From an uncultured Anaerobutyricum sp. (GTDB lineage Bacteria > Bacillota > Clostridia > Lachnospirales > Lachnospiraceae), in NCBI RefSeq assembly GCF_934307085.1, contig NZ_CAKRCF010000010.1:1-64000 (forward strand): a stretch of 64,000 bases of DNA, read 5' to 3'. Of this stretch, positions 3,218-43,922 are shown one piece after another (position 1 is the stretch's first letter; the number at the start of each line of letters is the position of its first letter). The notes below the pieces were generated by a model, which saw nothing but the letters and a program-made list of their open reading frames with translations, searched no databases and was not told the DNA's origin. The position numbers and the translations under genes were made by a program.

Positions 3218-3291
3218 AAGTTAGTTATCCCCTTTGTAAAGTCATTTGTGAGTATTCAAAGCTAAAAGTAACGTCATAAAATATTTTATTA

Positions 3292-3531
3292 TATAATTAT
3301 AAATGAGCAAATGAAAAAATGCACAATTAAGTTTATCCTATATGGACATTAATAATATCAACGAAACTTAATGTATGTGAGATGTACACAATCAGTTATA
3401 GATTTTGTTCGCTTTTTGTATTTGCTCGCTTATAGTTATATAAATGTAATTCATCTATAATTGAAAATATATTAGATTTTGAATAGTTATAAATTAACAT
3501 AAGTATATCATAAAAGGAAATTTATAACTAT
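3292..3531. promoter_or_regulatory. Candidate SorC operator array in divergent gap
   Basis: The 594-bp gap holds no gene but has clear symmetry. Site A at 3292-3328 and site B at 3402-3440 are inverted copies sharing the core GAGCAAAT next to a TATARTTATA box. Further right, a perfect 13-bp inverted repeat (ATAGTTATAAATT at 3483-3495, its complement at 3519-3531) reuses the same box. The arrangement suits cooperative or looping binding by a tetrameric SorC regulator. That role is inferred from position and symmetry only. The stretch 3532-3811 is AT-rich leader with an AGGAGG ribosome binding site before the next gene. Confidence 0.55.
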
Positions 3532-3811
3532 ATTTAATTCCGATAATTTCTTATTCATTATTACCAATTTTTCTTCGTGAAATTTGTTTCATATGCCAAT
3601 TGACTTTTCTCACAATAAAATCTATACTAGAAACAACAGGTGAAATGATTCTCCTTAATAATGAGAAATATTTCAAAAATGATAAAGTAAAGGTTTCTTT
3701 ACGTCAGTGATGATAAGTAAGGGAAAGTTGCTTAACATAACAGCATAATAACAATAATACATAATCTGATAACACAGATAAGATGCGAATGATACTTGAG
3801 GAGGTATATCA

Positions 3812-8477: not shown

Positions 8478-9455
8478 ATGTTTGTCAAAATAAAAGGGAC
8501 AGGCTCCTGCCTTCCTGAGAAAGTGCTTGATAATTTTGAAATTTCTCAGTTGGTAGATACGAACGATGAGTGGATTCAGAGTCGTACCGGAATCAAGAGC
8601 CGGCATATTGTCGGGGAAGAGACAGCAGTTTCTATGGCAGCCGAGGCGGCGAAGAGAGCATTGGAGGATGCGCAGGTTGCGGCAGAGGAGATTGATCTTC
8701 TCATTGTGTCGAGTGTTTCATCAGAACAGCTTTTGCCATGTACAGCCTGCAGTGTTCAAAAAGAAATTGGTGCTGTGAATGCAGCGGCATTTGACTTAAA
8801 TGCAGCATGTTCAGGATTTATAGTGGCTTATCAGATGGCAGCCGGGCAGATTAAGGCCGGGCTTTCGAAGAAGGCATTGTTAATTGGTGTAGAGTGTCTG
8901 TCGCATATTGTAAACTGGGAAGACAGAGGTACCTGTATTTTATTTGGTGATGGTGCCGGAGCAGCAGTTGTCAGTGCCGATGAAGCCGGGAATATAGATG
9001 AAAAAGGAAATGTTGAGATTCCTTCCGTACTTCATTCTGATGGAAGCAGGGGCGAGGTACTTACCTGCAAGAATCCTACGGGCAAGAGAGCCAATGGTTC
9101 TTTAGAAGGTTATGTGGCGATGGACGGCAGAGAGATTTACAAGTTTGCAGTCAGACAGGTTCCTGTCGTGATAAAGGAGATTCTTGAAAAGGCAGGGAAG
9201 TCTGTAGAAGAGATAGATTTATTTGTTCTTCATCAGGCGAACAGAAGAATTGTGGAAGCGATTGCAAAGCGGTTAAAGCAGCCAATCGAAAAGTTCCCGA
9301 TGGACATGATGCAGAATGGAAATATGTCTTCTGCGAGCATTCCAGTACTACTTGATGAATTAAAGAAAGCCGGAAAGTTACAGCCGGGAATGAAGATTGT
9401 TGTTGCAGGGTTTGGTGCAGGCCTTACATGGGGCGGCATGTATTTAGAATGGTAA
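8478..9455 (+). CDS. fabH: Beta-ketoacyl-ACP synthase III
   Basis: It starts fatty-acid synthesis by condensing acetyl-CoA, or a branched acyl-CoA, with malonyl-ACP. The 325-residue protein shows the thiolase-fold Cys-His-Asn triad: the cysteine in LNAACSGF (Cys111), the histidine in LHQANRRI near residue 252, and the asparagine in NGNMSSASIP near 282. It is the first gene of the fab/acc cluster and lies behind the TTTGA-rich control region. A GGAGAGAG ribosome binding site precedes the ATG. Confidence 0.95.
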   Translation: MFVKIKGTGSCLPEKVLDNFEISQLVDTNDEWIQSRTGIKSRHIVGEETAVSMAAEAAKRALEDAQVAAEEIDLLIVSSVSSEQLLPCTACSVQKEIGAVNAAAFDLNAACSGFIVAYQMAAGQIKAGLSKKALLIGVECLSHIVNWEDRGTCILFGDGAGAAVVSADEAGNIDEKGNVEIPSVLHSDGSRGEVLTCKNPTGKRANGSLEGYVAMDGREIYKFAVRQVPVVIKEILEKAGKSVEEIDLFVLHQANRRIVEAIAKRLKQPIEKFPMDMMQNGNMSSASIPVLLDELKKAGKLQPGMKIVVAGFGAGLTWGGMYLEW

Positions 9456-9692
9456 TTCCCGGAACTTTCGTTCTGGATTACATATATTTGTTCAAGACTA
9501 TAAAACCATAAGAAGTTTTAAAAAATATTAAAACTATGATTTGATTTTACGTTTTGAATAATTATGATTGCATAGAAAAAATGTATTTTTAGAAGCAAAA
9601 GATTTGTCATTAAATATGTCTTATAGAGGCAGGCAAAAGGAGCTTACAAAATACATCAAAACAAAAAAGAAAGAAAAAGTGAGGTTTATATT

Positions 9693-9917
9693 ATGTTTGA
9701 AAAAATTAAAGAATTAATCGTGGAGTCCTTAGGAATTGAAGAAGATCAGGTAACAATGGAAGCATCTTTCAAAGATGATTTAAAAGTAGATTCTCTTGAC
9801 CTTTTTGAGATGGTTATGAGTCTTGAAGATGAGTTCGATGTAGAGATTCCTACAGAAGAGTTAGAGAAGATGGTAACTGTTGGAGACGTTGTAAAGTATA
9901 TCGAAGAACATAAATAG
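9693..9917 (+). CDS. acpP: Acyl carrier protein
   Basis: This 74-residue acidic helical protein carries growing acyl chains on 4'-phosphopantetheine. The attachment serine is Ser34 in [10 protein letters not shown], a slight variant of the common DSLE motif. It starts 237 bp after fabH, and that gap has its own AT-rich leader, so a second promoter is possible. The fabK gene follows 14 bp downstream, so the two are probably translated from one message. Confidence 0.95.
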
Positions 9918-9931
9918 GCAGAGGTAAAAGA

Positions 9932-10876
9932 ATGAAAACAGTGATTACAGAATTGCTTGGAATTGAGTACCCGGTAATTCAGGGCGGTATGGCATGGGTT
10001 GGAACAGCCGAGCTTGCCGCCGCTGTTTCCGAAGCCGGAGGACTTGGAATCATTGGTGCCGGCGGTGCACCAGCTTCCTGGGTAGAAGAACAGATTCACA
10101 AAGTGAAGGAAAAGACAGACAAGCCATTTGGTGTGAATCTGATGTTATTAAATCCAGAAGCAGATGCGATTGCAGAGTTGATTATTAAAGAAAATGTAAA
10201 AGTAGTAACAACAGGTGCCGGTAACCCGGAAAAATATATGGAAGCATGGAAGAATGCAGGCGTTCGTGTGATTCCAGTCGTAGCAAGTACTGCTCTTGCA
10301 AAACGAATGGAAAAGGCAGGCGCTGATGCGGTAATTGCAGAAGGTACAGAGTCTGGCGGACATATCGGAGAGACTACAACAATGGCATTAGTACCTCAGG
10401 TTGTTGATGCAGTAAATATTCCAGTTATCGCAGCTGGTGGAATTGCAGATGGAAGAGGAATGGCAGCTGCTTTTATGCTTGGTGCAAAGGCTATTCAGAT
10501 GGGAACAATTTTTGTTGCATCGAAAGAGTCTATTGTAAGTGACGCTTATAAAAATAAGGTAATTAAAGCAAGAGATATTGATACGAAAGTAACCGGAAGA
10601 ACAACAGGACATCCGGTACGATGTTTAAGAAATCAGCAAACAAGAGAGTATTTGAAGTTAGAGCAGGAAGGTGCTTCCTTTGAAGAACTTGAGAAGCTGA
10701 CACTTGGCGGTCTTAGAAAAGCAGTGATTGATGGCGATGTGATTCATGGCAGTGTGATGGCAGGCCAGATTGCCGGTCTTGTAAAGGACAGCAGAAGTTG
10801 TAAAGAAATTATCGAAGGAATCTGTAAGGAGATGAAAGAAGTCATTCTTTCACAGGCAGAGAATATCGGGAGGTAG
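9932..10876 (+). CDS. fabK: Flavin-dependent enoyl-ACP reductase II
   Basis: It reduces enoyl-ACP with NAD(P)H and FMN at the end of each elongation round, replacing the FabI-type enzyme. The 314-residue protein is a TIM barrel of the 2-nitropropane dioxygenase superfamily, with GIEYPVIQGGMAWVG at the start, the catalytic-region motif AEGTESGGHIGE near residue 130, and the phosphate-binding IAAGGIADGRG and GAKAIQMGT segments. A position between acpP and fabD is standard for FabK in streptococci and clostridia. No FabI is in the window. Confidence 0.92.
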   Translation: MKTVITELLGIEYPVIQGGMAWVGTAELAAAVSEAGGLGIIGAGGAPASWVEEQIHKVKEKTDKPFGVNLMLLNPEADAIAELIIKENVKVVTTGAGNPEKYMEAWKNAGVRVIPVVASTALAKRMEKAGADAVIAEGTESGGHIGETTTMALVPQVVDAVNIPVIAAGGIADGRGMAAAFMLGAKAIQMGTIFVASKESIVSDAYKNKVIKARDIDTKVTGRTTGHPVRCLRNQQTREYLKLEQEGASFEELEKLTLGGLRKAVIDGDVIHGSVMAGQIAGLVKDSRSCKEIIEGICKEMKEVILSQAENIGR

Positions 10877-34647: not shown

Positions 34648-34693
34648 GCATATTGTCAGCGCGAGAGAACAGCGCAGACAAAGAAGTGAATAT

Positions 34694-34768
34694 CGGGGTG
34701 TGGCTCAGCTTGGCTAGAGCGCTTGATTTGGGATCAAGAGGCCGCAGGTTCGAATCCTGTCACCCCGA
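34694..34768 (+). tRNA. tRNA-Pro (UGG), copy 1
   Basis: The cloverleaf is complete: 7-bp acceptor CGGGGTG/CACCCCG, anticodon stem CTTGA/TCAAG with loop anticodon TGG, and T arm GGTTCGAATCC. CCA is not encoded. It forms a Pro-Gly pair that is repeated at 35315-35465. Confidence 0.95.
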
Positions 34769-34773
34769 TATCT

Positions 34774-34844
34774 GCGGGTGTAGTTCAATGGTAGAACACT
34801 AGCCTTCCAAGCTAGATACGTGGGTTCGATTCCCATCACCCGCT
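34774..34844 (+). tRNA. tRNA-Gly (UCC), copy 1
   Basis: Acceptor GCGGGTG/CACCCGC, anticodon stem CTAGC/GCTAG with anticodon TCC, and T arm GGTTCGATTCC. CCA is not encoded. Confidence 0.95.
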
Positions 34845-34892
34845 TCTGCAAGAGCAGAGTTTGCAATTATATATTGTAACTAACTATTTATG

Positions 34893-34968
<76 letters not shown>

Positions 34969-34989
34969 TTGTCAGGTTGTCCTGGCTAT

Positions 34990-35064
34990 GGTGGGTGTGG
35001 CGCAGTTGGTTAGCGCGCCAGATTGTGGCTCTGGAGGCCGAGGGTTCGAATCCCTCTACCCACC
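34990..35064 (+). tRNA. tRNA-His (GUG)
   Basis: Acceptor GTGGGTG/TACCCAC preceded by an encoded G at 34990 that can pair with the C at 35064, the usual extra histidine base pair. The anticodon is GTG in a CCAGA/TCTGG stem. Confidence 0.94.
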
Positions 35065-35070
35065 TTATAA

Positions 35071-35142
35071 TGGGCTATCGCCAAGCGGTAAGGCACAGGA
35101 CTTTGACTCCTGCATTCGCTGGTTCGAATCCAGCTAGTCCAG
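35071..35142 (+). tRNA. tRNA-Gln (UUG)
   Basis: Acceptor TGGGCTA/TAGTCCA with one wobble pair, anticodon TTG in the loop of a CAGGA/TCCTG stem, and T arm GGTTCGAATCC. It starts six bases after tRNA-His. Confidence 0.94.
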
Positions 35143-35186
35143 TAGGATCAGTGATTCGAAAAGCTGGCTTATTAATAATTTAATAT

Positions 35187-35259
35187 GGGATATTAGCTCA
35201 GTTGGTAGAGCACTTGACTTTTAATCAAGTTGTCCGGGGTTCGAATCCCCGATGTCTCA
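35187..35259 (+). tRNA. tRNA-Lys (UUU)
   Basis: Acceptor GGGATAT/ATGTCTC with two wobble pairs, anticodon TTT in a CTTGA/TCAAG stem, and T arm GGTTCGAATCC. Confidence 0.94.
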
Positions 35260-35314
35260 TTCGAAAATCGTTGCTATAGCGGTTTTGGATTTTAAACAAT
35301 ATTATATAGTATAC

Positions 35315-35389
35315 CGGGGTGTGGCTCAGCTTGGCTAGAGCGCTTGATTTGGGATCAAGAGGCCGCAGGTTCGAATCCTGTCACCCCGA
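35315..35389 (+). tRNA. tRNA-Pro (UGG), copy 2
   Basis: Identical to copy 1 at 34694-34768 over all 75 bases. With the next tRNA-Gly it forms a 151-bp duplication. Confidence 0.95.
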
Positions 35390-35394
35390 TATTT

Positions 35395-35465
35395 GCGGGT
35401 GTAGTTCAATGGTAGAACACTAGCCTTCCAAGCTAGATACGTGGGTTCGATTCCCATCACCCGCT
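35395..35465 (+). tRNA. tRNA-Gly (UCC), copy 2
   Basis: Identical to copy 1 at 34774-34844 over all 71 bases. Only the five-base spacer to tRNA-Pro differs, by one base. Confidence 0.95.
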
Positions 35466-35509
35466 TTCTTTTTTCGCCTGCGAGAAAAGATAATTGAATT
35501 ACAGGATAT

Positions 35510-35589
35510 GCGGATATGGCGGAACTGGCAGACGCGCTAGACTTAGGATCTAGTTCTTCGGAGTGCAGGTTCGATTCCTGTTATCCGCA
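35510..35589 (+). tRNA. tRNA-Leu (UAG), integration target
   Basis: Acceptor GCGGATA/TATCCGC, anticodon TAG in a CTAGA/TCTAG stem, and a short variable arm around TTCTTCGGAGT. The last 15 bases of the gene lie inside the 26-bp repeat that bounds the mobile element, so integration keeps the tRNA intact. Confidence 0.95.
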
Positions 35590-35600
35590 TAGTAAAAGCC
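35575..35600 (+). repeat. attL, 26-bp core repeat
   Basis: It is identical to 43897-43922. It covers the last 15 bases of tRNA-Leu plus 11 bases beyond (AGTAAAAGCC region). The sequences diverge immediately on both sides. Confidence 0.93.
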
Positions 35601-35640
35601 GGAGAGCCGCTATTTTAGTAGGTTTCCGGTTTTTATTTTT
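35599..35640 (+). terminator. Element-supplied terminator for tRNA-Leu
   Basis: A CCGGA/TCCGG-based hairpin (35599-35629) with two T-runs lies just inside the left end of the element. It replaces the native tRNA terminator, which is now beyond the right end at 43921-43957. Confidence 0.7.
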
Positions 35641-35646
35641 TGGTAG

Positions 35647-35665
35647 TGGTAATAAAATGGTAATA
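35647..35665 (+). repeat. Left pair of TGGTAATA sites (integrase arm-site candidate)
   Basis: TGGTAATA occurs at 35647-35654 and 35658-35665, 11 bp apart. The same motif pair with the same 11-bp spacing occurs at the right end (43777-43795). Paired short repeats near both ends are usual for the arm-binding domain of tyrosine integrases. Confidence 0.6.
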
Positions 35666-35694
35666 TTTTTTTTGAACGGTTAGAATCAAAAGGC

Positions 35695-35793
35695 ATTATC
35701 AAAATCATAGTCAAAACCCTCAGAAGTTTTGATAATATGTTTTGATAAAGCGAGTACCGCTTGTTTCTGTGTATTCGCTGCCTTTATCAAAAC
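35695..35793. other. Two stem-loops inside left end
   Basis: A 10-bp stem (ATTATCAAAA at 35695-35704 with its complement at 35727-35736) is followed by a 12-bp stem (35739-35750 with 35782-35793). Both reuse the ATCAAAA word. They could terminate leftward transcription or bind integrase or host factors. Confidence 0.55.
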
Positions 35794-35859
35794 TTAACAG
35801 TATTGACAATGTGCAAGAAATTCCTCTATTGATGGCAGTCAGTAGGGGTTTTTTATTGT

Positions 35860-36522
35860 CTAGAGATTATTAATGTTCTCGGACACTTCATCCCAATGCT
35901 GATTCATACTAATAACATAATCTGGCCCGTAGTTGGTTCTTTTGTATCCTGCGTAACAACTTGCTGTTGCCACAAGGCTATCCCAACTTTTGATAATATC
36001 ATCTTTTTCATGTGCCAGTTTGGCGGAAAAAGACAGCAGGGAAGCACGAGAACCTTCAAATTTTGTATCGTCTGCCATTTTGCCGGCATGGTCCGCAATA
36101 AGGCGGCGCATAGTAGGATTGTCGGAATATTTATCACTCATTCGGAATACATCTTCCGGGGTCATAATTCCCGAATTGAGTAAAGATAAGGCGTTATCGT
36201 CAACAAGTTCCGGTTTAACAGAATAATAAGATGCGGCCGCTTCGTTGAATTCCTCAGTAATTTTTGATACGGTATTTTCGTAATCGTCCCAGATGTTTCT
36301 TGAAGCGTTCTTAAAAATATTTTCAGCATAAAGATAATTTGCTTTAGTTGATGCTATTCGGGCTGCTCGTTCACCTGAAAAAACCTCTGGTCTGTCAGAA
36401 GTGGACGCTTTGTCATAAGCTTCTTTTGCCTCTGTTAATTCGGCGAATGCTTCTAAATAGTTGGCTCTGGCTCTTTTAAATGCTTTGTCTAATTTGATTG
36501 CATTTTCTTTGTATGGATTCAT
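35860..36522 (-). CDS. Unknown phage-island protein, largely helical
   Basis: I do not recognise a family for this 220-residue protein. It is helical throughout, with a probable coiled coil over residues 10-95 (alternating Ala, Lys, Glu), and a second part containing SLLNSGIMTPEDVFRMSDKY and PTMRRLIADHAGKMAD. There is no signal peptide or membrane segment. It is the last gene of the leftward operon, next to the left end, where satellites often carry helper-interference or cargo genes. AGGAG precedes the ATG. Real coding is supported by length, ribosome binding site and operon position. Confidence 0.6.
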   Translation of the reverse strand: MNPYKENAIKLDKAFKRARANYLEAFAELTEAKEAYDKASTSDRPEVFSGERAARIASTKANYLYAENIFKNASRNIWDDYENTVSKITEEFNEAAASYYSVKPELVDDNALSLLNSGIMTPEDVFRMSDKYSDNPTMRRLIADHAGKMADDTKFEGSRASLLSFSAKLAHEKDDIIKSWDSLVATASCYAGYKRTNYGPDYVISMNQHWDEVSENINNL

Positions 36523-36618
36523 TTTTTACTCCTTTTCTGTATTATATGTTTTTTTGGGACTCGGGTATAAAGTTACAGTGTATATTTTTTCTACCACCCC
36601 CTTTAAGTGAAAACGCCT

Positions 36619-36990
36619 TTATAATCTTGTTACGCCTTTACCTGCCAAAGCACGAATATGAACTAATACAATTCTCTGGCGTCTTTCGTCTAAAGAATCA
36701 AACAGTTGCATGATTTCTTCTTTTTGTCTTACCTTTGCGGTATCTTCCTGTGGTAACTTGTTTACTGTGTTCGACATGATAATTTCTTTCTTGTAACCTG
36801 TGTTACAATTCTCTTTGTAAACGCATCCACGTTGTAAGCCTAAGTAGTATGATGTTGTAACCAAATCTAATTTGTCCCGGCTATAGTCCCGTATAGCGTT
36901 GGTTTCTGGTATGGTGAGGTCATATTCTTCATTGGCTAAAGCAAGTTCTAAGCCTTTTCGGGACAGTTCAATTATTTGTTCTGTGTTCAT
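36619..36990 (-). CDS. Unknown small island protein
   Basis: This 123-residue protein has no recognised domain. The N-terminal part (1-65) has one CxxxxxC pair (GCVYKENC), and the C-terminal part (70-123, from MSNTVNKLPQEDTAK) is basic and helical with DERRQRIVLVHIRALAGKG. An internal ATG at the second part could give a 52-residue product, but GGAG-type spacing favours the full-length start. It lies between the AntA and last island genes. Confidence 0.55.
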   Translation of the reverse strand: MNTEQIIELSRKGLELALANEEYDLTIPETNAIRDYSRDKLDLVTTSYYLGLQRGCVYKENCNTGYKKEIIMSNTVNKLPQEDTAKVRQKEEIMQLFDSLDERRQRIVLVHIRALAGKGVTRL

Positions 36991-37050
36991 GTTTTTATGT
37001 TCTCCTTTCTTGGTAAATGGTGGGGTGTTCCGTATGGGGTTATTGTTAGT

Positions 37051-37470
37051 CTAAAGTGCATAATATGCACTTCCGAAAATTACGGTGGGGTATTCCGTAT
37101 GAGGTCTCATTTCAGTGACTCCCCTTATCTTTAAAACTCTAGCAAAAACCTGTTCCGGCGTGTTCCATGCTTTCTCAAGGTCGAGAAAATATTGTCTGTA
37201 TAATCTGCCTTTTTCGGAACGCTGAATCATGCAAATCTGTTTTGCCATGTCAACTGAAATTTGATAGTCTATGATTTCCCGTTCAGCACCATTGTTTACA
37301 AGTGTGGAACTTTTCACGCTTGTAAAATCATTACCCTCGTTGAAGCCATAAGCTGACATTCTCTCGAACCACCTTGAAAATCTATCCGTAATTCCCAAGC
37401 CAGTATGCAAATCTCTTGCAGAAACAGTTGGCTGCTCCGCATCATAGTTGACAGGAATTAAATTTTCCAT
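37051..37470 (-). CDS. AntA-type antirepressor, apparently truncated
   Basis: Residues 1-115 match the AntA/AntB antirepressor domain closely: LIPVNYDAEQPTVSARDLH, RFSRWFERMSAYGFNEGNDF and VDMAKQICMIQRSEKGRLYR. Phage AntA proteins normally continue for another 100 or more residues with a KilAC or Ant C-terminal domain. Here the family match stops near ARVLKIRG and a short unrelated tail of about 22 residues ends the protein. A partial direct repeat (37018-37040 and 37083-37105) lies at the break, so a deletion is likely. Confidence 0.8.
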   Translation of the reverse strand: MENLIPVNYDAEQPTVSARDLHTGLGITDRFSRWFERMSAYGFNEGNDFTSVKSSTLVNNGAEREIIDYQISVDMAKQICMIQRSEKGRLYRQYFLDLEKAWNTPEQVFARVLKIRGVTEMRPHTEYPTVIFGSAYYAL

Positions 37471-37514
37471 CTAGTCACCATTGCAACCGTACTTGATGTA
37501 CACTTGTTAAAATT

Positions 37515-37718
37515 TTAGGATAAAAAAATATCAATTTTTTCTTTTCCTGTCATTCCAAGAAAATCCCCTAAATTGTTAGCTTCTTCAATGCCAAACATTG
37601 ATGAACCATGCATTTTTTTAGTAAATGTCTGCGGACTAACATGGATTACAGCCGCACATTTTTTATAGGTTTGTCCCTTTTCTGCAATCATTTCTTTTAA
37701 TCTGGTAAGTTTTATCAT
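37515..37718 (-). CDS. Small Cro/XRE-type DNA-binding protein
   Basis: This 67-residue protein reads as a phage-type helix-turn-helix: LKEMIAEKGQTYKKCAAVIHVSPQTFTKKMHGSSMF over residues 8-43, with recognition helix around VSPQTFTKKM. It has an AAGGAGTG site and overlaps the end of the BRO gene by 56 bp in another frame. It is likely a second regulator of the leftward operon, or an activator paired with the antirepressors. Confidence 0.7.
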   Translation of the reverse strand: MIKLTRLKEMIAEKGQTYKKCAAVIHVSPQTFTKKMHGSSMFGIEEANNLGDFLGMTGKEKIDIFLS

Positions 37719-38166
37719 AACACTCCTTTTCGTCTATATCTGACGATGTTAGATTCTCTGAAAGCATTTTTATCTGCTCCTTTATGTTTGGTTTAGGGTA
37801 ACAGCCATATTTTCTGATAGTTGGTAAGACATCATCAAATACCCAATCTTTGAAACGTTCTAATTTTTCAATTCTGGAATTTATCCGGGCATCGTTTTGT
37901 GTCACACCCCTAGCACGTTGGGGTTCCATTGCGAACAAGAGAGAATAGAATCCGGATTCGTTAACTATAGTCATTTGCTGTTTGCCGCCTTTAGTTTGAA
38001 TTGGTGCAGTTCTTTTGTCGTCATCGGGTACTCTGGCAAGGCTCCGGCGATAGTGAGTATCACCGAACGCAGTGCAAACATCTTTACCAACAAACCAGGA
38101 TTCTTCATCAATGAGGATTGTTCTCATGGTCCCAAACTCTTTATTAATACAGGTTAAATAGTCCAT
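37663..38166 (-). CDS. BRO-N domain antirepressor-like protein
   Basis: Residues 5-105 are a BRO N-terminal domain: CINKEFGTMRTILIDEESWFVGKDVC, SLARVPDDDKRTAPIQTKGGKQQMTIVNESGFYSLLF (in pieces) and IEKLERFKDWVFDDVLPTIRKYG. Such proteins are phage antirepressors or DNA-binding regulators. I choose the ATG giving MDYLTCINKEFG. The TTG 30 bases upstream lies inside a repeat shared with the end of the previous small gene. The C-terminus of about 50 residues is short and lacks an ANT domain. Confidence 0.78.
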   Translation of the reverse strand: MDYLTCINKEFGTMRTILIDEESWFVGKDVCTAFGDTHYRRSLARVPDDDKRTAPIQTKGGKQQMTIVNESGFYSLLFAMEPQRARGVTQNDARINSRIEKLERFKDWVFDDVLPTIRKYGCYPKPNIKEQIKMLSENLTSSDIDEKECYDKTYQIKRNDCRKGTNL

Positions 38167-38268
38167 GCTGTTAGTGGTACACCCCTTTCTATACAATCAA
38201 TTTTAAATACCATGCGTGGCGGTCAATATCTCGACTACCATTTCGGTACCTGTCAAAATTGGTATGCT

Positions 38269-38412
38269 CTATACAACTGATTTCAAATACCATGTATTGA
38301 TATACAGATACATCCGGGCGACTTCTTCATCTGGCAGGAGTGCCAGTAAGTTCGCTAACTCTTTTATCATGGTTTCTTTGTCCTTTATCTTTGTCATTTG
38401 TTTCAAGTTCAT
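38269..38412 (-). CDS. 47-residue island protein
   Basis: A short reading frame with a good GAAGGTGAG ribosome binding site codes for a helical, charged protein with the core LANLLALLPDEEVARMYLYI. Its last eight codons and stop lie in a repeat of about 27 bp (38268-38294), imperfectly copied at 38188-38214 before the BRO gene. The rest of the 38167-38603 gap holds the 87-bp repeat and a hairpin. Confidence 0.5.
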   Translation of the reverse strand: MNLKQMTKIKDKETMIKELANLLALLPDEEVARMYLYINTWYLKSVV

Positions 38413-38433
38413 TGTTGCTCACCTTCGTTCTTT

Positions 38434-38520
38434 GCTTGATTTTCAGATTTTATAGCCTTAGAGGATAAATAACACCTTGAAGGGATTATATACTCCGTAA
38501 TTTGAGTTATTTATGCATCT
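38434..38520. repeat. 87-bp direct repeat, copy 1
   Basis: It matches 40143-40229 at 81 of 87 positions. It contains the inverted repeat ATAAATAAC/GTTATTTAT. A leftward hairpin (CTTGCC...GGCAAG, about 38556-38602) lies beside this copy. Confidence 0.85.
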
Positions 38521-38603
38521 ACGAGAAATAGAATGCATTTTGTGAGGTAGCCTCTTGCCCTACAGTTCGTAAATGATATAGAACTCTAAGGCAAGTGTAT
38601 GTT

Positions 38604-38780
38604 TTACTGGTAATTCTCTGTCAGTAATACAAAGGCATTTAGAGGGGCGTAGTTATGAGACCCCGATATAGGGTCATTGTGTGCGACTATATCGCCCCAA
38701 CTTAGGAAGACCCAAAGAATGAAAGCCGCTGACAGTGTTATAATTAAATTCTTTGTTACGGTAAATATTATGTTTTTCAT
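38604..38780 (-). CDS. Small single-span membrane protein
   Basis: This 58-residue protein starts at the ATG after AGAGGAAACC and begins MKNIIFTVTKNL. One hydrophobic segment (about 8-27, ending VFLSWGDIV) is followed by a short polar tail with SHNYAPLNAFVLL. It has no recognised family. It could be a holin-like or superinfection-exclusion peptide, but nothing in the sequence decides this. Confidence 0.5.
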   Translation of the reverse strand: MKNIIFTVTKNLIITLSAAFILWVFLSWGDIVAHNDPISGSHNYAPLNAFVLLTENYQ

Positions 38781-38897
38781 GGTTTCCTCTTTTCTTTCTA
38801 CAGAAACCATGATAAATTATATGTGTGTGTTAATTTATACGGTTTCGTGTAGATGCTTTCCCCGTCCAGAAGTGGCTGCTTCTGTATGGGGATTTTT

Positions 38898-39797
38898 TTA
38901 GTTATCGAAGGCTCCGTCTTTGATTTCTTTTGAATGTTCTAAAATCCAACCAAAATCAACAGGGGATTCTTCGTCATGTATTCTTGCTTTCAAGGTGCTA
39001 CTTTGTTCTGCTTTTTGAAAAATAGTAGAGTAGTCGGCTTTTGAATATCTATCAAACATTAAGCTGTTTGATAATGCTGTAGAATATTGAGTGATGTCAT
39101 TGACTGTGGGGTATGTAGTACATATGCCATTGAATAAGCCTGCAATGTCATCGGCTGTCAGTTGTTGAGATTGTGGATAACTAGGAGAGGAGCATTGTGG
39201 ACAACTTGTCTCGTTTGGTTCCTTCCTCTCTCTTTCCTTCTTTCCCCCATACCCCCTATTATCTATACTCTCTCTATCTTCTACTTTCTCTATACTATCT
39301 CTATACTTACCTAACTCTATACTACTCTTATCTATACTATCCTTATCTATACTATACTTACCTATACTAACCTGTTCCGACGTTTTGTCGGCAACTCGTT
39401 GACATTCTTCCGACATTTTGTCGGCATCTTGTTGACAAGGTTCTGACGAGTTATTAAAAATCAAGTATTTCCCTTGTTCATCAACAAGCAGTAGTCCCTT
39501 TTCATCAGTGAATATGGTTTTAGTTTTTCTACTTGGCTGTATCTTGTTTTGCATTTCCCAGTGAGTTACAACTACTACGCCGCTTTGAAAACTTATCAAG
39601 AATCCTTTGGCAATAAGCAATCTTAACGAGTCCTTGCTAAAGCCGGTCATTCTTCTAATAGTCTCTGGATTTCCTACAAATCCCTCATCGTCTGCATTTA
39701 AAACAAGATGCATATACAAAGCCTGTGAGTCTGCTGGCATTTCAAAAAATGGGTCTGATTCAACGACCGTTTTGTTTAACATTCGTCTATTTGCCAT
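38898..39797 (-). CDS. Phage replisome organiser (DnaD-like N-domain)
   Basis: Residues 1-95 match the phage replisome-organiser N-terminal domain, with MANRRMLNKTVVESDPFFEM, LYMHLVLNADDEGFVGNPE and SGVVVVTHWEMQNKIQPSR. These proteins bind the phage origin and recruit host helicase loading. A linker of about 40 residues repeats SIDK/SIEK units (about 143-178), and the C-terminal 100 residues carry a helical region ending VDFGWILEHSKEIKDGAF. It supports autonomous replication after excision. It starts one base inside the previous gene's stop. Confidence 0.82.
   Translation of the reverse strand: MANRRMLNKTVVESDPFFEMPADSQALYMHLVLNADDEGFVGNPETIRRMTGFSKDSLRLLIAKGFLISFQSGVVVVTHWEMQNKIQPSRKTKTIFTDEKGLLLVDEQGKYLIFNNSSEPCQQDADKMSEECQRVADKTSEQVSIGKYSIDKDSIDKSSIELGKYRDSIEKVEDRESIDNRGYGGKKERERKEPNETSCPQCSSPSYPQSQQLTADDIAGLFNGICTTYPTVNDITQYSTALSNSLMFDRYSKADYSTIFQKAEQSSTLKARIHDEESPVDFGWILEHSKEIKDGAFDN
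39236..39385. repeat. Tandem CTATACT repeats inside rep gene, candidate origin
   Basis: At least eight spaced copies of a TCTATACT-like word, separated by short variable AT-rich pieces, form the linker region of the replication gene. Many phage origins lie within the initiator gene as direct repeats. The DNA repeat also explains the SIDK protein repeat. Confidence 0.6.
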
Positions 39798-39991
39798 TAT
39801 TCGTTATTATCCTTCCTTCCGCTGTACATTCTTTCGTGAAAATAAGTTTTGTTCACTTTGCCTTGAAAAATCAAGAACCCTTTGGCTGCCAGCTCACTAT
39901 TAAGTTCCCTGATAACAGAATATGCTTTTGACTGTTTGCAGCCGCATATTGCCATAATGTCATTCACATCATAAAAAGTGTTATTCCCCAT
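39797..39991 (-). CDS. Small helix-turn-helix protein, excisionase-like
   Basis: This 64-residue protein begins MGNNTFYDVNDIMAICGCKQ and continues SKAYSVIRELNSELAAKG, a MerR/excisionase-style helix-turn-helix (about 8-35). The position next to the replication gene fits a phage Xis or a small replication regulator. Its start overlaps the previous small gene by 11 bp and its stop overlaps the rep start by one base, so all three are translationally coupled. Confidence 0.65.
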   Translation of the reverse strand: MGNNTFYDVNDIMAICGCKQSKAYSVIRELNSELAAKGFLIFQGKVNKTYFHERMYSGRKDNNE

Positions 39992-40130
39992 TGTGCTTCA
40001 TCTCCTTTCTGGCGTCTTCAATCATCTGCATGAGTTCATTATGCTGCTTCATTAATTCCTCATGACGTTTTTTCTCTTGTTCAAGTAAATCATGAAGAAA
40101 TTCTTCTAAGCTTTTGTCTTCTTCTGCCAT
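39981..40130 (-). CDS. 49-residue coiled-coil island protein
   Basis: A short frame with an AAAGGAG site encodes an almost wholly helical charged peptide (LEEFLHDLLEQEKKRHEELM) with heptad leucine and methionine spacing. It overlaps the next gene by 11 bp. Function unknown; an oligomerising adaptor is plausible. Confidence 0.6.
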   Translation of the reverse strand: MAEEDKSLEEFLHDLLEQEKKRHEELMKQHNELMQMIEDARKEMKHNGE

Positions 40131-40142
40131 ATTGCTCCTTTC

Positions 40143-40229
40143 GCTTGATTTTCGCATTTTACAGTTTTAGAGGATAAATAACACCTTGAAGGGGTTATAT
40201 ACTCCGTAATTTGAGTTATTTATGCATCT
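40143..40229. repeat. 87-bp direct repeat, copy 2
   Basis: Same length as 38434-38520 with six mismatches. It covers the last codons and stop of the 93-residue gene at 40216, which may mean that copy 1 is a leftover of a duplicated gene end. Confidence 0.85.
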
Positions 40230-40497
40230 GTGAAAGCTGAAAGCCAACAGGAGCACTAGGTTTCTTGTTACCTTTACGGAAAGAAATACAATCTTTGGGG
40301 CAGGTATAAGTTTTACCAATAATTTCTCCTGTGTCTTGCAAGCTGTGAGTTTCTTTCAGTTTCCATTTTCCTTCTGGTAAAGCAATTAATTTATCTAATT
40401 TTGTCATGGTTGTGCTGTCAGAAGTATAAATAACTGCCATGTCACTGTTTCTTGTGAAAATTATATTAGTTTCTTGTTCGTGGACTGGTAAAGCCAC
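40216..40497 (-). CDS. Conserved-looking 93-residue phage protein
   Basis: I place the start at a GTG (protein MALPVHEQETN) because an AAAGGAG site lies 7 bases before it. An upstream ATG would include sequence that is repeated near int. Two parts are visible: IIFTRNSDMAVIYTSDSTTMTKLDKL and IGKTYTCPKDCISFRKG. This resembles small early proteins in Gram-positive phages, but I cannot name a family or function. It is the second gene of the leftward operon after the Cro-like gene. Confidence 0.6.
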   Translation of the reverse strand: MALPVHEQETNIIFTRNSDMAVIYTSDSTTMTKLDKLIALPEGKWKLKETHSLQDTGEIIGKTYTCPKDCISFRKGNKKPSAPVGFQLSQMHK

Positions 40498-40605
40498 ACT
40501 ATCACTCCTTTCATCCGATACCGCCGCCCGGCTGGTGTTATTAGTTATCGGTGTCAATAAGGTAGGTTTCTCCTAATTCTGGGAAAAACTCATTTCCCTG
40601 TGTTA

Positions 40606-40803
40606 TTAGTTATCGGTGTCGATAAGGTCTAGGACATCAACTCCAAGAACTTTAGCAAGTCTTCCGGCTGTTTCTGGCTTAACGTTCTTACCTGTCATAG
40701 CGTTGGTAAGTGTTCCGGCTGGAAATCCTGCCGCCACAATCTCTTTCTGTCCCATACAGGCTCTCGCTTTAGCAAGTTCTAATTTCTTTCTGTTGATTCT
40801 CAT
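40606..40803 (-). CDS. Cro-like XRE helix-turn-helix protein
   Basis: This 65-residue DNA-binding protein has the XRE fold: KLELAKARACMGQKEIVAAG, then FPAGTLTNAMTG as recognition helix and KPETAGRLAKVLGVDVLDLI. I start at the ATG eight bases after AAAGGTGG. It is divergent from the double-HTH repressor across 150 bp that holds both promoters and operator-like repeats, as in cI/cro or SaPI stl/str switches. It should favour early leftward expression. Its last bases are repeated just downstream (40540-40563). Confidence 0.78.
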   Translation of the reverse strand: MRINRKKLELAKARACMGQKEIVAAGFPAGTLTNAMTGKNVKPETAGRLAKVLGVDVLDLIDTDN

Positions 40804-40844
40804 TTGTTTTACCACCTTTCAAAGTTGTATTTTCTACACTTTGA

Positions 40845-40930
40845 ATATTATCACCACTTTTTATGGTTGTCAATCATTTTTCACAACTTTTTTTGGTTGT
40901 ATTTGACGTTATTGCGTGGTAATATATAAT
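40845..40930. promoter_or_regulatory. Divergent promoters and operators of the lysogeny switch
   Basis: The leftward promoter reads TTGACA (40873-40868) and TAATAT (40850-40845), 17 bp apart. The rightward one reads TTGACG (40903-40908) and TATAAT (40925-40930), 16 bp apart. Two similar sites, 40852-40875 and 40882-40905, share ACTTTTT-x-TGGTTGT with ACNAC/GTTGT symmetry. The first covers the whole leftward promoter and the second touches the rightward -35. Confidence 0.72.
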
Positions 40931-40953
40931 CAAAAAGGAGTGCATAAAAATTT

Positions 40954-41973
40954 ATGAGTTTTTCAGATAGATTAAGACAAGCACGCAAAAGACAGGGGTT
41001 AACACAAGAAGAACTTGGTAAAAAAAGCGGACTTTCAACATATACCATTCAACGCTATGAATACGGGAAATTAAATCCAAAGAAAAATACAGTAGCCAAA
41101 CTTGCTACAGCTTTAAATCTTGGATATGATTACACAAAAAGCGGTGAGCCATATTTTTACACTTTCGTTGATACCGTACCAAGTCCAGAATATGAAGATG
41201 CCGAAGATTTTAACCAAGAACAGTACCGAAATGCAATAGAAAAAGCATTAGAAGATGTAACTTTGTCAACGATAGGAGAAAAAATAAAATGGTTACGAAA
41301 GAATAAAAAAATCAGTCAGAGAGAACTTGCTCAAAAAACCGGACTTTCCATTGGTTCCATACAGGGATTCGAGCAAGGGCGATATAATCCGAAATTAGAG
41401 ACAGTTTTAAAAATAGCGGATGCGTTGGAGATTAGTATAAATGTTTTTTATGAGAATTTATCTAAAGATGAATACCAAAATATTTTAGAGACAAAAGCCA
41501 GGAAAGCAGATATAGACAATTTCAACAGCGTTGTAAATATTTTAAGTAACCTTAATGATAGTTATTCCTTGTATAACAAAGAAGAGGATTGCTATATTTT
41601 TGGAACAGGTGATAATGCTTTTGTATTAAAGTCGAAATCAGTTCGAGCATTACAAAAAGCAATAGAAAGTTTTATTCCATGTATTACAGAACAACTAAAA
41701 GATATGGAGCCTGTACCGAAAATATTAGAAAGTATGTTTGGTAATGAAGAAAACTGTATTAGAGCATTTTCAAAAGACGAACAACTTTTTGATAAATGTT
41801 GTAAGAATATATCATTGCTATTATGTATGGACTATGGTGTTGTTGGTGAGGAAATATCTGGTTATTTAGAACAATATTGTATAGAGAAAGATATAACTCG
41901 AAAAATTATAGCTGGACAAGGAGAAGAATGGATTATCAATCCACATGCTGGTGATAAAACTAAGACAAATTAA
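40954..41973 (+). CDS. Double-HTH XRE repressor (CI/Stl-like)
   Basis: This 339-residue protein has two separate XRE helix-turn-helix domains: residues 2-62 (LRQARKRQGLTQEELGKKSG) and 107-165 (IKWLRKNKKISQRELAQKTG). A C-terminal part of about 170 residues has no recognised protease motif, so RecA-driven self-cleavage is not evident. SaPI Stl repressors are inactivated by binding a helper-phage protein, and that mode is possible here. It faces rightward, away from the Cro-like gene, with an AAGGAG site. Confidence 0.82.
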   Translation: MSFSDRLRQARKRQGLTQEELGKKSGLSTYTIQRYEYGKLNPKKNTVAKLATALNLGYDYTKSGEPYFYTFVDTVPSPEYEDAEDFNQEQYRNAIEKALEDVTLSTIGEKIKWLRKNKKISQRELAQKTGLSIGSIQGFEQGRYNPKLETVLKIADALEISINVFYENLSKDEYQNILETKARKADIDNFNSVVNILSNLNDSYSLYNKEEDCYIFGTGDNAFVLKSKSVRALQKAIESFIPCITEQLKDMEPVPKILESMFGNEENCIRAFSKDEQLFDKCCKNISLLLCMDYGVVGEEISGYLEQYCIEKDITRKIIAGQGEEWIINPHAGDKTKTN

Positions 41974-42001
41974 AAAACTCATGAAAAAGGAGAGAAAAAG
42001 C

Positions 42002-42148
42002 ATGAACGAACCGCCAAGAAGCGAATATGTTGCAAGATTGCTTGCTACCCTCTTGGGTGCAGAACACGGTTGCGAATATGATGAGGTGTCCTACATCGAC
42101 AAAGAGGGCGTAGAGCATGAAGTAAAAAAGGAAGAGCCTTACCATTAA
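42002..42148 (+). CDS. 48-residue protein downstream of repressor
   Basis: A small frame with an AAAGGAGAG site, 28 bp after the repressor stop, encodes MNEPPRSEYVARLLATLLG and an acidic tail. No family is recognised. Co-transcription with the repressor suggests a role in the lysogenic state. Confidence 0.55.
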   Translation: MNEPPRSEYVARLLATLLGAEHGCEYDEVSYIDKEGVEHEVKKEEPYH

Positions 42149-42277
42149 TTTTGGTTTACTAAGGCATATTAATTTAAAGCTCGTAAAACCAAAAAAAGTG
42201 CAGAAAAATATAATATATTTAATTAGGCAGCCGGGGACGGCTTCACCTGTTCCGAGTCTTGCGGAAGGGGTGATATT

Positions 42278-42361
42278 ATGGTTACATACACAGACCTTTT
42301 TACATACACCATCATGCTATGTGCTGTAATCACGCTAGCTATTAATATACACAAAAAATAG
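42278..42361 (+). CDS. Holin-like type I toxin peptide
   Basis: This 27-residue peptide begins MVTYTDLFTYTIMLC and is mostly one membrane helix with a short basic end (HKK). It matches the small putative holin-like toxins of Firmicutes type I systems (TxpA/BsrG-like class). A GGAAGGGGTGAT ribosome binding site precedes it, and a -10 box TATAAT lies at 42209-42214. Arms before and after the gene (42228-42254 with 42416-42444) can pair, folding the message end to end. An antisense promoter points back from the right. Confidence 0.75.
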   Translation: MVTYTDLFTYTIMLCAVITLAINIHKK

Positions 42362-42450
42362 CCGTCCTGCTCCCTGCAAAGAAACGGACGACTACTTTTT
42401 AAACTAAATCTTTACCGGGACAGGTGCCGCACACCTTCCGGCTGTCTTGT
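42355..42450 (-). ncRNA. Predicted antisense antitoxin RNA
   Basis: On the minus strand TTGACT (42486-42481) and TATAAT (42463-42458) are 17 bp apart. They would start an RNA at about 42450 that runs leftward into the toxin 3' region. A hairpin with stem AGTCGTCC/GGACGGCT followed by six T's (to about 42355) would end it. This is the RatA/SR4-type layout. Confidence 0.68.
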
Positions 42451-42495
42451 TAAGTATATTATATTCTAAACACTTATATTAGTCAATAATAAAAA

Positions 42496-42521
42496 GCACT
42501 TCATTACCCCTAATGAAGTGC
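42496..42521 (-). terminator. Minus-strand hairpin terminator
   Basis: A perfect 11-12-bp stem (GCACTTCATTA with its complement) is followed by a T-run only on the minus strand. It shields the antisense promoter from upstream leftward transcription. To its right, 42541-42582, another imperfect hairpin (CTAGAAG/CTTCTAG) lies before int; the rest of 42522-42693 holds no gene. Confidence 0.75.
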
Positions 42522-42647
42522 CTGTCAAGTATGAGGGACGCTAGAAGTGACAAAGAAAGAAACTTTGATAGCTTCTAGGTGAGCCTGTTTTGAACGTAAT
42601 ATACAATATAAACTGACACATTGTCAATATGCAATATGTTTTTATCT

Positions 42648-42666
42648 ATCCGATACCGCCGCCCGG
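42648..42666. repeat. 19-bp GC-rich repeat before int
   Basis: It is identical to 40513-40531, which lies before the 93-residue gene on the other strand. The copy here ends 28 bp before the int start. Confidence 0.75.
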
Positions 42667-42693
42667 TCATCAAAGAATAGGAGTGATAACGAT

Positions 42694-43782
42694 ATGTCCG
42701 CATATTATGACAAGATAACAAAGAACTGGTATTGTATTTTTTATTTTACAGACTGGAAAGGAACCAAGAAACAGAAGAAAAAGAGAGGGTTCAGCCGAAA
42801 AAAAGATGCTTTAGAGTATGAGAGAGAGTTTCTTGATAAATTATCAAGTAGCCCGGATATAGCTTTTTCTGGCATGGTAGAGCTTTATCTGGCTGATAAA
42901 AAGATGCATACAAAACTAAAGACGTACAAGACGAAGAAAAGTAGAATTTTCACCTGGATATTGCCATATTTCAACGATAAGGCTATAAATGCAATTACAG
43001 CCGCAGACATACGCCAATGGCAGGGGGAACTAAAAGAAGCCGTAGGAGCAACCGGGGAAGTGTTAAGTCCTGCATATATGCAAAATTTAGTTACGGAACT
43101 TTCTGGAATATTTAATTTTGCAGTACGTTTTTATAATCTTCCTGCTAATCCCTGCAGGGTTGCCGGGAATCTGGTTGGAAAGAAGGGAAAAAGCCTTGAT
43201 TTCTGGACAAGAGAAGAATTTGACCGCTTTGTAGATACCTTTGACAAGACAGACCCTTATTATGCGGCATTCATGACGCTGTATTATACAGGAATGCGAA
43301 TAGGAGAGTTGCAGGCTCTTACCATTGCGGATGTAGATTTGAAAGAGGGTGTAATACATATATCCAAGACGTATTCAGTAATTGACGGCAAAGAAGTGAT
43401 AACCGCTCCCAAAACTGAAAAGTCGAATAGAGATGTATTAATACCGCATTTTCTCTGTGAGATATTAAAAGAGCAGGTGCAACGCTACTATAAGGTGCCC
43501 CCAAATACTAGGCTCTTTCAAATGTCCCGGCAGCCGTACCGGGAACAAATGAAAAAACATTGTAGACTGGCAGGAGTGAAGAAGATAAGGCTTCACGACC
43601 TGCGACATTCTCACGCTTCTCTGCTCATTGAGTTGGGATTCTCTGCCCTGTTGGTGTCAGAAAGGTTAGGGCATGAAAGTGTATCCACGACTTTAGACAT
43701 ATATGCTCATTTATTCCCATCGAAGCAAGTGCAAGTAGTAGAGCGTTTGAATAAGCTGTACGATGGAACTTTACAGTGGTAA
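42694..43782 (+). CDS. int: Tyrosine site-specific integrase
   Basis: This 362-residue phage-type integrase has an N-terminal arm-binding domain (WYCIFYFTDWKGTKKQKKKR), a core-binding helical domain (about 60-165) and a catalytic domain with Arg in TGMRIGEL near residue 201, HDLRHSH near 300-306, GHES near 327 and the tyrosine in LDIYAHLF near 336. All catalytic residues are intact. It lies at the right end, 115 bp from attR, and its stop codon overlaps the first right-hand arm-site candidate. A good AGGAGTGAT site precedes the ATG. Confidence 0.95.
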   Translation: MSAYYDKITKNWYCIFYFTDWKGTKKQKKKRGFSRKKDALEYEREFLDKLSSSPDIAFSGMVELYLADKKMHTKLKTYKTKKSRIFTWILPYFNDKAINAITAADIRQWQGELKEAVGATGEVLSPAYMQNLVTELSGIFNFAVRFYNLPANPCRVAGNLVGKKGKSLDFWTREEFDRFVDTFDKTDPYYAAFMTLYYTGMRIGELQALTIADVDLKEGVIHISKTYSVIDGKEVITAPKTEKSNRDVLIPHFLCEILKEQVQRYYKVPPNTRLFQMSRQPYREQMKKHCRLAGVKKIRLHDLRHSHASLLIELGFSALLVSERLGHESVSTTLDIYAHLFPSKQVQVVERLNKLYDGTLQW

Positions 43783-43795
43783 TATTTTGGTAATA
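43777..43795 (+). repeat. Right pair of TGGTAATA sites (integrase arm-site candidate)
   Basis: TGGTAATA at 43777-43784 and 43788-43795, 11 bp apart, mirrors the left pair at 35647-35665 in the same orientation. The first copy overlaps the int stop codon. Confidence 0.6.
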
Positions 43796-43896
43796 AAAAA
43801 GTGTGCAAACAGAATAATAGTCGTAAATTATATTAGATAAGGCGTGAAAAAGTGGCTAAAATAAAGGGTTATAACAGGAAAAAATAGCAATGTGGT

Positions 43897-43922
43897 TTCC
43901 TGTTATCCGCATAGTAAAAGCC
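43897..43922 (+). repeat. attR, 26-bp core repeat
   Basis: It is an exact copy of 35575-35600. It carries only the last 15 bases of tRNA-Leu, so it is the junction and not a second gene. Confidence 0.93.

Follow-up and report, generated by a model that had tools for sequence, protein, structure and literature searches.

Introduction

Among the described phage satellites, P4 is known by its gene set of psu, delta, sid and the alpha primase, and the capsid-forming phage-inducible chromosomal islands (PICIs) are satellites that carry part of a structural module, with a capsid-formation and packaging module of their own. In passages of PMC10803314 and PMC13376191, PICIs are described as having an integrase between direct repeats together with regulatory and DNA replication genes, and the average size given in the former is 9.5 kb. 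SaPIbov5 redirects the helper capsid by means of a capsid-protein homologue, as stated in excerpts of PMC8569155, and the PICMIs of the Vibrionaceae are presented in part of PMC10803314 as satellites of minimal gene content, with a core of AlpA and primase and no capsid remodelling genes.

The window analyzed here is a stretch of DNA of 64 kb, in which an earlier note had reported a PICI-like satellite in a gut-type Clostridium. The host lies outside Clostridium proper; of the genomes searched, the nearest belonged to the family of Blautia glucerasea, the Lachnospiraceae. This family is one of the dominant bacterial groups of the human gut. Among the literature matches listed, none dealt with phage satellites in Lachnospiraceae, and PMC11318856, on the prophages of Clostridium clostridioforme, mentions such islands just in passing in the portion available. 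The element described below is probably a phage satellite, PICI-like in layout, and most likely belongs to a little-described gut type.

Results

Insertion site and limits of the element

The integrated element occupies positions 35575-43922, which is 8,348 bp (8.3 kb) from attL to attR, and the following features define its limits:

35509..35590, + strand: tRNA-Leu(tag), the integration target (ARAGORN; empty site in the sister genome G401)
35575..35600, no strand: attL, 26-bp direct repeat (exact)
43897..43922, no strand: attR, 26-bp direct repeat (exact), with chromosomal flank beyond

Both the 8.3-kb element at tRNA-Leu and the 26-bp repeat of the earlier note were confirmed. The repeat was exact and was found only at these two positions when the whole window was searched, and attL overlaps the 3' end of the tRNA-Leu(tag), so that the element carries that tRNA 3' end. 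In G401 the site was empty, with the tRNA at L039 13580-13661 and a downstream flank that reads like the flank of the right copy. In another sister genome, G321, the same site holds what reads as a remnant of the element. The empty site and the apparent remnant indicate that the element is more than a chance pattern.

Integrase, regulators and replication gene

From the right end to the replication gene, the features recognized were these:

42694..43782, + strand: tyrosine integrase, full length (Pfam Phage_integrase, 3.4e-26; PHROG integrase, 4.7e-80)
42278..42361, + strand: 27-aa hydrophobic peptide, from its sequence (identical peptide in a sister genome, L068 8989-9129)
41945..42148, + strand: 67-aa ORF (81% identical over 48 residues in the faecal phage contig L012)
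40954..41973, + strand: repressor with two HTH stretches (Pfam/PHROG)
40606..40815, - strand: Cro-like HTH protein, encoded by the gene that opens the leftward run (weak Pfam/PHROG matches)
40216..40557, - strand: 113-aa ORF with a TTG start (phrog_1709, a PHROG without known function)
40140..40229, no strand: 90-nt repeat, copy 2 (92% identical to copy 1)
39981..40157, - strand: 58-aa early protein (by eye, L066 has a comparable stretch in fusion with a phrog_989-like part)
39797..39991, - strand: 64-aa protein (phrog_989, a PHROG without known function)
38898..39797, - strand: DnaD-like helicase loader or replisome organizer (phrog_5708, 6.4e-54)
39172..39437, no strand: origin-like cluster within the loader gene (DnaA-box-like words, CTATACT copies, tandem repeat)
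38431..38520, no strand: 90-nt repeat, copy 1, which precedes a 47-aa ORF (repeat scan)

The integrase frame was open and matched in both libraries, in agreement with the intact gene claimed earlier. The claim of divergent repressor and Cro-like genes, an arrangement also shown by PICIs, held as well, with a weak match on the Cro-like side, where the Pfam matches fell below the curated cut-offs; a 40% identical counterpart of this protein was present in L006. No peptidase domain was matched in the repressor (Pfam, PHROGs). The 27-aa peptide, without a Pfam or PHROG match, is a putative type I toxin. Homologues of the phrog_989 protein lie close to the integrase in many of the loci compared, and this protein is a possible excisionase.

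The replisome organizer proposed earlier was recovered as the DnaD-like loader by its PHROG match, Pfam giving none. The cluster within its gene contains two DnaA-box-like words (at 39172 and 39196), eight CTATACT copies (39263-39368) and a 33-bp tandem repeat (39375-39437). Seven non-overlapping CTATACT copies fall within 110 bp, against a maximum of three for any 7-mer counted in 200 Markov simulations of the element; both DnaA-box words were found two more times each elsewhere in the window. No primase was matched in the element (Pfam, PHROGs), and a DnaD-like loader is present instead of the primase-replicase of PICIs.

Integrases 57-66% identical to that of the element were found in 4 of 397 genomes, two of them in complete elements, L006 (9.2 kb, at tRNA-Gly) and L064 (8.9 kb, at tRNA-Leu(tag)). 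The order integrase, repressor/Cro-like, phrog_989, replication and late genes was repeated in both, with replication and late genes different from those of the window element. The earlier note advised a search for the same gene order at tRNA-Leu in related genomes, and L064 shows this layout there. L064 has a weak scaffold match (2.6e-05), a major-head gene and a sigma-factor-like gene, and no terminase, portal or tail gene was seen among its eight scanned ORFs.

Leftward genes

The remaining leftward genes end with p220, next to attL:

37663..38196, - strand: Bro-N antirepressor-type protein, 177 aa (Pfam PF02498, 2.7e-16; PHROG anti-repressor, 1.2e-32)
37515..37718, - strand: small HTH protein (counterpart of 79% identity in the faecal phage contig L012)
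37051..37470, - strand: AntA antirepressor domain protein, 139 aa (Pfam PF08346, 3.8e-25; PHROG anti-repressor)
36619..36990, - strand: 123-aa protein (29 proteins match its whole length or a part of it)
35860..36522, - strand: p220, a 220-aa protein predicted to be entirely helical, encoded by the gene nearest to attL (family found repeatedly in satellite-like elements)

The AntA domain (PF08346) was also present in 9 of the 29 proteins matched by the 123-aa protein. Neither the 10 larger proteins nor six small ORFs matched a capsid, portal, terminase, tail, lysis or relaxase function (Pfam and PHROGs), as the earlier note had stated for capsid, terminase, relaxase and lysis genes.

Larger gut phage contigs (L012, L013) also contain the repressor, the small HTH gene and the antirepressors, and the AntA and Bro-N proteins of the element, of 139 and 177 aa, are smaller than their homologues in L013 (252 and 243 aa). 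These observations would fit a stripped, decaying prophage, the other origin allowed by the earlier note, in which a temperate phage lost its late genes and kept its lysogeny and early replication region. However, the element retains intact att sites on both sides together with an intact integrase and replication gene, elements of about this size and of the same layout but with other late genes recur (L006, L064), and five p220-family queries found no full-size phage with p220 among 50,697 phage records, a collection in which gut phages of Lachnospiraceae may be sparse. Given the intact ends and the recurrence of comparable elements, this origin is improbable, and a satellite remains the preferred reading.

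p220 and its family

The closest protein cluster to p220 stands for 647 sequences, and a full-length match was obtained with MT837364 (L075; 3e-21). Relatives were detected in 18 further loci, one of them doubtful: three in the 397 genomes, three in the 50,697 phage records, all three shorter than 11.5 kb, and 12, including the doubtful one, in viral contigs. The doubtful match (L091) adjoins head-morphogenesis and neck genes. An HMM-recognized terminase, portal, tape-measure or minor head gene was present in 11 of the 17 non-doubtful loci, and no major capsid gene was recognized in a partial HMM scan of contigs that are mostly incomplete. This count covers chosen proteins plus 75 of 110 further ORFs of at least 100 aa; the other 35 were assigned by eye to tape-measure, terminase, p220, integrase, repressor, replication, sigma or host proteins, and L085 and L091 lay outside the set of 75. 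The scan of the 75 ORFs gave the best 25 of 70 matching families, a capsid match being possible among the rest, and the minor head match of L081 came from a separate scan and is absent among the 75-ORF matches listed.

A human faecal record (L077) of 11,458 bases has a 124-base terminal overlap, that is, circular ends and a size of 11.3 kb. It carries an integrase, terL and p220 and, judged by eye, a repressor, a DinD/Bro-N-like gene and a primase-like gene. The window element falls within the grouping made here, namely p220 in a compact element without a recognized major capsid gene. Since the relatives of p220 were found mainly in small phage-like elements without a recognized capsid gene, the element is most likely a phage parasite.

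In L006 and L064, p220 was not detectable (E limit 1e-4); the alignment of p220 with a 216-aa gene of L006 gave 18%. Since p220 was undetectable in both complete elements with the same type of integrase, integrase and p220 do not form one lineage.

Otherwise, the element could be a self-sufficient integrative element, a replicating genomic island whose spread depends on transformation or mobilization and not on packaging by phages. Its own integrase, loader and origin-like cluster, the lack of a recognized packaging gene and the possible toxin peptide are consistent with this, but the relaxase that a mobilizable or conjugative element would carry was not matched in Pfam, neither p220 nor similar plasmid DNA was found among 72,556 plasmid records, and in other loci members of the p220 family lie together with terminase, portal and tape-measure genes. 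We consider self-sufficiency very unlikely and a phage satellite the better account.

Discussion

A life cycle can be proposed for this probable satellite. In the quiet state, the element lies in tRNA-Leu and restores its 3' end, a layout seen in the window, and the rightward repressor would hold it. A helper-phage protein, or its own Bro-N and AntA antirepressors, would inactivate the repressor and open the leftward genes. The integrase, with a small wHTH/Cro-type protein, would excise the element at the 26-bp repeats, which were observed together with the empty site. The DnaD-like protein may load the host helicase at the cluster found in its own gene, a putative origin. Since the element has no recognized terminase or capsid gene, we propose that the excised circle is packaged by a helper phage. 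The last gene product, p220, may act on helper virion assembly or packaging, a role suggested by the company its family keeps. More speculatively, the antirepressors may also induce resident prophages and thereby supply the helper.

Tentatively, and at somewhat less than an even chance as a whole, p220 may be the signature gene of a widespread and so far undescribed class of satellites of gut Clostridia and, as their shared factor, redirect helper virion assembly, with the window element as a minimal form. Members of the class would possess no more than a few architecture-setting helper genes, or a single one (tape measure, terminase, portal), related integrase lineages would carry a scaffold and a major head protein, and the minimal window element would have p220 alone plus antirepressors that wake a helper prophage. 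As a single marker gene, p220 would allow gut metagenomes and particle DNA to be searched for elements of this kind, and a satellite reduced to one candidate morphogenesis gene would be a simple system in which to ask which genes a satellite needs for taking over a virion.

With regard to known systems, the PICI-like satellite of the earlier note is the best-supported reading, with two complete relatives of the same layout (L006, L064). As in the PICIs, including SaPIs and the S. thermophilus islands, in so far as the cited passages describe them, the element has an integrase, att direct repeats at a defined site, regulators, replication genes and a similar size (8,348 bp, near 9.5 kb). Unlike them, it has a DnaD-like loader, antirepressor-type genes and p220 at its end, with no primase match and no terS, capsid-size or interference gene recognized by HMMs (Pfam, PHROGs). 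PICI status proper is not established, since primase, terS and capsid-size genes were unrecognized. A canonical PICI in which terS and interference genes escaped recognition or gave way to proteins of unknown kind, a sub-case of the satellite reading that shares in its likelihood, would suit the size, the att layout, the divergent regulators and the replication module (PMC10803314 and PMC13376191, in the parts available), but the missing HMM matches for terS, primase, capsid-size and interference genes speak against it, and it is less likely than not; p220 is a candidate for a terS, capsid-size or interference role.

No P4-like gene set was matched in the window element (Pfam, PHROGs). The minimal content without capsid remodelling genes recalls the PICMIs as outlined in PMC10803314, whereas site and host are different and no AlpA or primase was recognized with Pfam or PHROGs. 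No capsid-protein homologue of the SaPIbov5 type (Ccm) was recognized in the window element; its relative L064 resembles that type, in so far as the excerpts of PMC8569155 describe it, in carrying a homologue of a phage major head protein, to which it adds the weakly scaffold-like and sigma-factor-like genes. Finally, the capsid-forming PICIs differ from the window element, which gave no capsid, portal or terminase match (Pfam, PHROGs), and from the p220 relatives, which have subsets of terminase, portal and tape-measure genes and no recognized major capsid gene; these relatives are nevertheless like the capsid-forming PICIs in that they also carry part of a structural module.

Structure and gene content of the element

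The element occupies 8.3 kb (35575-43922) between two exact copies of a 26-bp direct repeat, the only ones in the 64-kb window. A cluster of nine tRNA genes finishes with tRNA-Leu(tag), and the left copy lies over the end of this gene. The anatomy of the element was read directly, with the following landmarks:

35575-35600, left copy of the 26-bp repeat (attL)
35860..36522 (-), 220-aa protein (p220) adjoining attL
39797..39991 (-), 64-aa member of phrog_989, a family of unknown function
43897-43922, right copy of the 26-bp repeat (attR)

The interval between the copies encodes a tyrosine integrase of full length and, reading rightward, a repressor with two HTH stretches, with a weak Cro-like HTH divergent from it. 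A DnaD-like helicase loader, Bro-N and AntA antirepressor-type proteins and a small HTH protein are also encoded, alongside proteins of unknown function, p220 among them. The repeat, intact integrase and replisome organiser described in an earlier note were thereby recovered; of its divergent repressor/Cro-like pair, the arrangement and the repressor held, while the Cro-like match remained weak. When 16 ORFs (ten larger and six smaller) were scanned against Pfam and PHROGs, no match to capsid, portal, terminase, tail, lysis or relaxase families was obtained, in agreement with the absence of capsid, terminase, relaxase and lysis genes claimed by the note.

A 156-nt tRNA-Pro/tRNA-Gly pair was duplicated in the tRNA cluster (34690-35466; 99% identical, 621 nt apart). 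A 90-nt repeat (38431-38520 and 40140-40229, 92% identical), located before or over the starts of two small ORFs, is possibly their shared leader or operator; its core had no exact match in the viral contigs. A 27-aa hydrophobic peptide (42278-42361), which looks like a mobile type I toxin, had an identical copy elsewhere on the chromosome of the related genome G401 (L068 8989-9129).

Inside the loader gene, the word CTATACT was present eight times in 106 bp, with three more copies elsewhere in the window (both strands), together with a 33-bp tandem repeat and two DnaA-box words, each with two further occurrences in the window. When the element was simulated 200 times with a first-order Markov model, 7-mers with at least three different letters reached a maximum of 3 non-overlapping copies per 110 bp, as did the rest of the window, against 7 observed for CTATACT. 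Origins can sit in replication-protein genes, and this cluster, resembling them, is a predicted origin.

Insertion at tRNA-Leu in sister genomes

The closest of the genomes searched were reached through the Lachnospiraceae, the family of Blautia glucerasea, with 397 genomes, and then through the genus of G321, with 24. An empty site was directly observed in G401, whose flank is 87% identical to the window and carries the same tRNA cluster without the element; past tRNA-Leu, its sequence continues like the flank of attR. In the sister genome G321 (flank 78% identical), tRNA-Leu is followed by 54 bp that share 94% identity with the element sequence adjoining attL, and then by an inverted piece, 73% identical to the region beside the toxin-like peptide. 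Since no integrase ORF was present between tRNA-Leu and the host flank, this locus was read as the remnant of a same-site element. Taken together, both loci indicated that attR borders old chromosome and that the left terminator was brought by the element.

Relatives sharing the integrase

Integrase matches at E 1e-110 or better were obtained in four of the 397 Lachnospiraceae genomes (66, 62, 60 and 57% identity), two of them with complete elements. That of Blautia glucerasea (L006) lies at tRNA-Gly, where copies of a 61-nt repeat (93%) bound it at a distance of 9.19 kb; its genes include one resembling a primase/helicase, one resembling a sigma factor and one for a 216-aa protein. That of genome G324 (L064; integrase 62% identical) lies at tRNA-Leu(tag) between 19-nt repeats with one mismatch, 8.9 kb apart, and carries a helicase and a late module (8500-10712) in which a weakly scaffold-like gene (2.6e-05) is accompanied by one for a major head protein (phrog_422, 5e-55) and by a sigma-factor-like gene. 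Its head protein was at most 45% identical to phage records among the best 12 of 110 matches. The third locus (L066) is partial, ending with its contig and having the integrase split over two ORFs, and the fourth (L065) is a 3.9-kb contig.

The order integrase, repressor, divergent Cro-like gene, phrog_989, replication gene was directly observed, partly by eye, in L006, L064 and the available part of L066; L064 has this layout at tRNA-Leu, where the earlier note had proposed to search for the element's gene order. No p220 match at E 1e-4 was found in L006 or L064. The phrog_351 sigma-factor-like genes recur late in elements (L006 2101-2985; L064 9807-10712; L076, a p220 locus, 3202-4083), where they are perhaps late-gene regulators; the window element gave no phrog_351 match.

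Spread and neighbours of the p220 family

The protein search with p220 returned 9 proteins, the closest cluster (95% identical) standing for 647 sequences, and a profile search scored 7,995 candidates, of which 167 were matches. Three of the 397 genomes carried p220, by single sequence and by profile alike. The predicted structure was all-helical and confident, with no meaningful fold match. Plasmid records gave no match to the window p220. When five family members (window, L020, L076, L082 and L087) were used as queries against 50,697 phage records, only MT837364 (L075, 7.0 kb), MT837714 (6.3 kb) and MT836267 (L077, 11.5 kb) were matched. The L020 and L087 queries matched nothing, missing even these three, and the test therefore detects only fairly close kin.

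Twelve loci in viral contigs had p220 relatives; L080-L082, compared by eye, have one protein in common, and L091 is a doubtful member. The neighbours were directly observed to include terminase subunits, portal, tape measure and minor head protein. A packaging or virion gene was recognised by HMM in 11 of 18 p220 loci (L020, L021, L022, L075, L077, L081, L082, L083, L087, L088 and L090) and, additionally, in the doubtful L091; for L080, L084, L085, L086 and L089 the assignment of such genes was by eye only. In L076, a replication-type gene and a sigma-factor-like gene accompany p220, and no packaging or virion gene was seen. No major capsid gene was recognised in these loci, whose contigs are mostly incomplete and whose ORF scan was partial. 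A tape-measure gene lies near the p220 homologue, without a recognised major capsid gene, in L020, L021, L022, L082 and L087, accompanied by terS or terL in all but L021.

Because its ends overlap by 124 bases, MT836267 reads as an 11,334-bp circle. It encodes an integrase, terL and p220 and, by eye, a repressor and DinD/Bro-N-like and primase-like genes. Human faecal samples from Mexico are the source of all three matched records, and we infer that they stem from a study of Mexican children in which DNase-treated virus-like particles are described (PMC8361208); its text does not contain their accession prefix.

Proposed mode of life and comparison with known systems

The element probably works like a satellite and is possibly a phage-inducible chromosomal island. 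The repressor would keep it quiet; on release it would excise and replicate, a helper would package its DNA and p220 would act on the virion. In Salmonella, trans-acting antirepressors coordinate the induction of several prophages (PMC3121763); speculatively, the Bro-N and AntA genes could coordinate prophage induction likewise.

Compared with phage-inducible chromosomal islands, as portrayed in PMC10803314 and PMC13376191, the element differs in having a DnaD-like loader and no primase match among its 16 ORFs in Pfam and PHROGs. Nor did these ORFs match terS, capsid-size or interference families in the two libraries, a role for which p220 is a candidate. It is like them in size, att sites and integrase, divergent regulators and a replication gene. 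Among its relatives, the late module of L064, with its weakly scaffold-like and major-head genes, is reminiscent of the Ccm of SaPIbov5 (PMC8569155).
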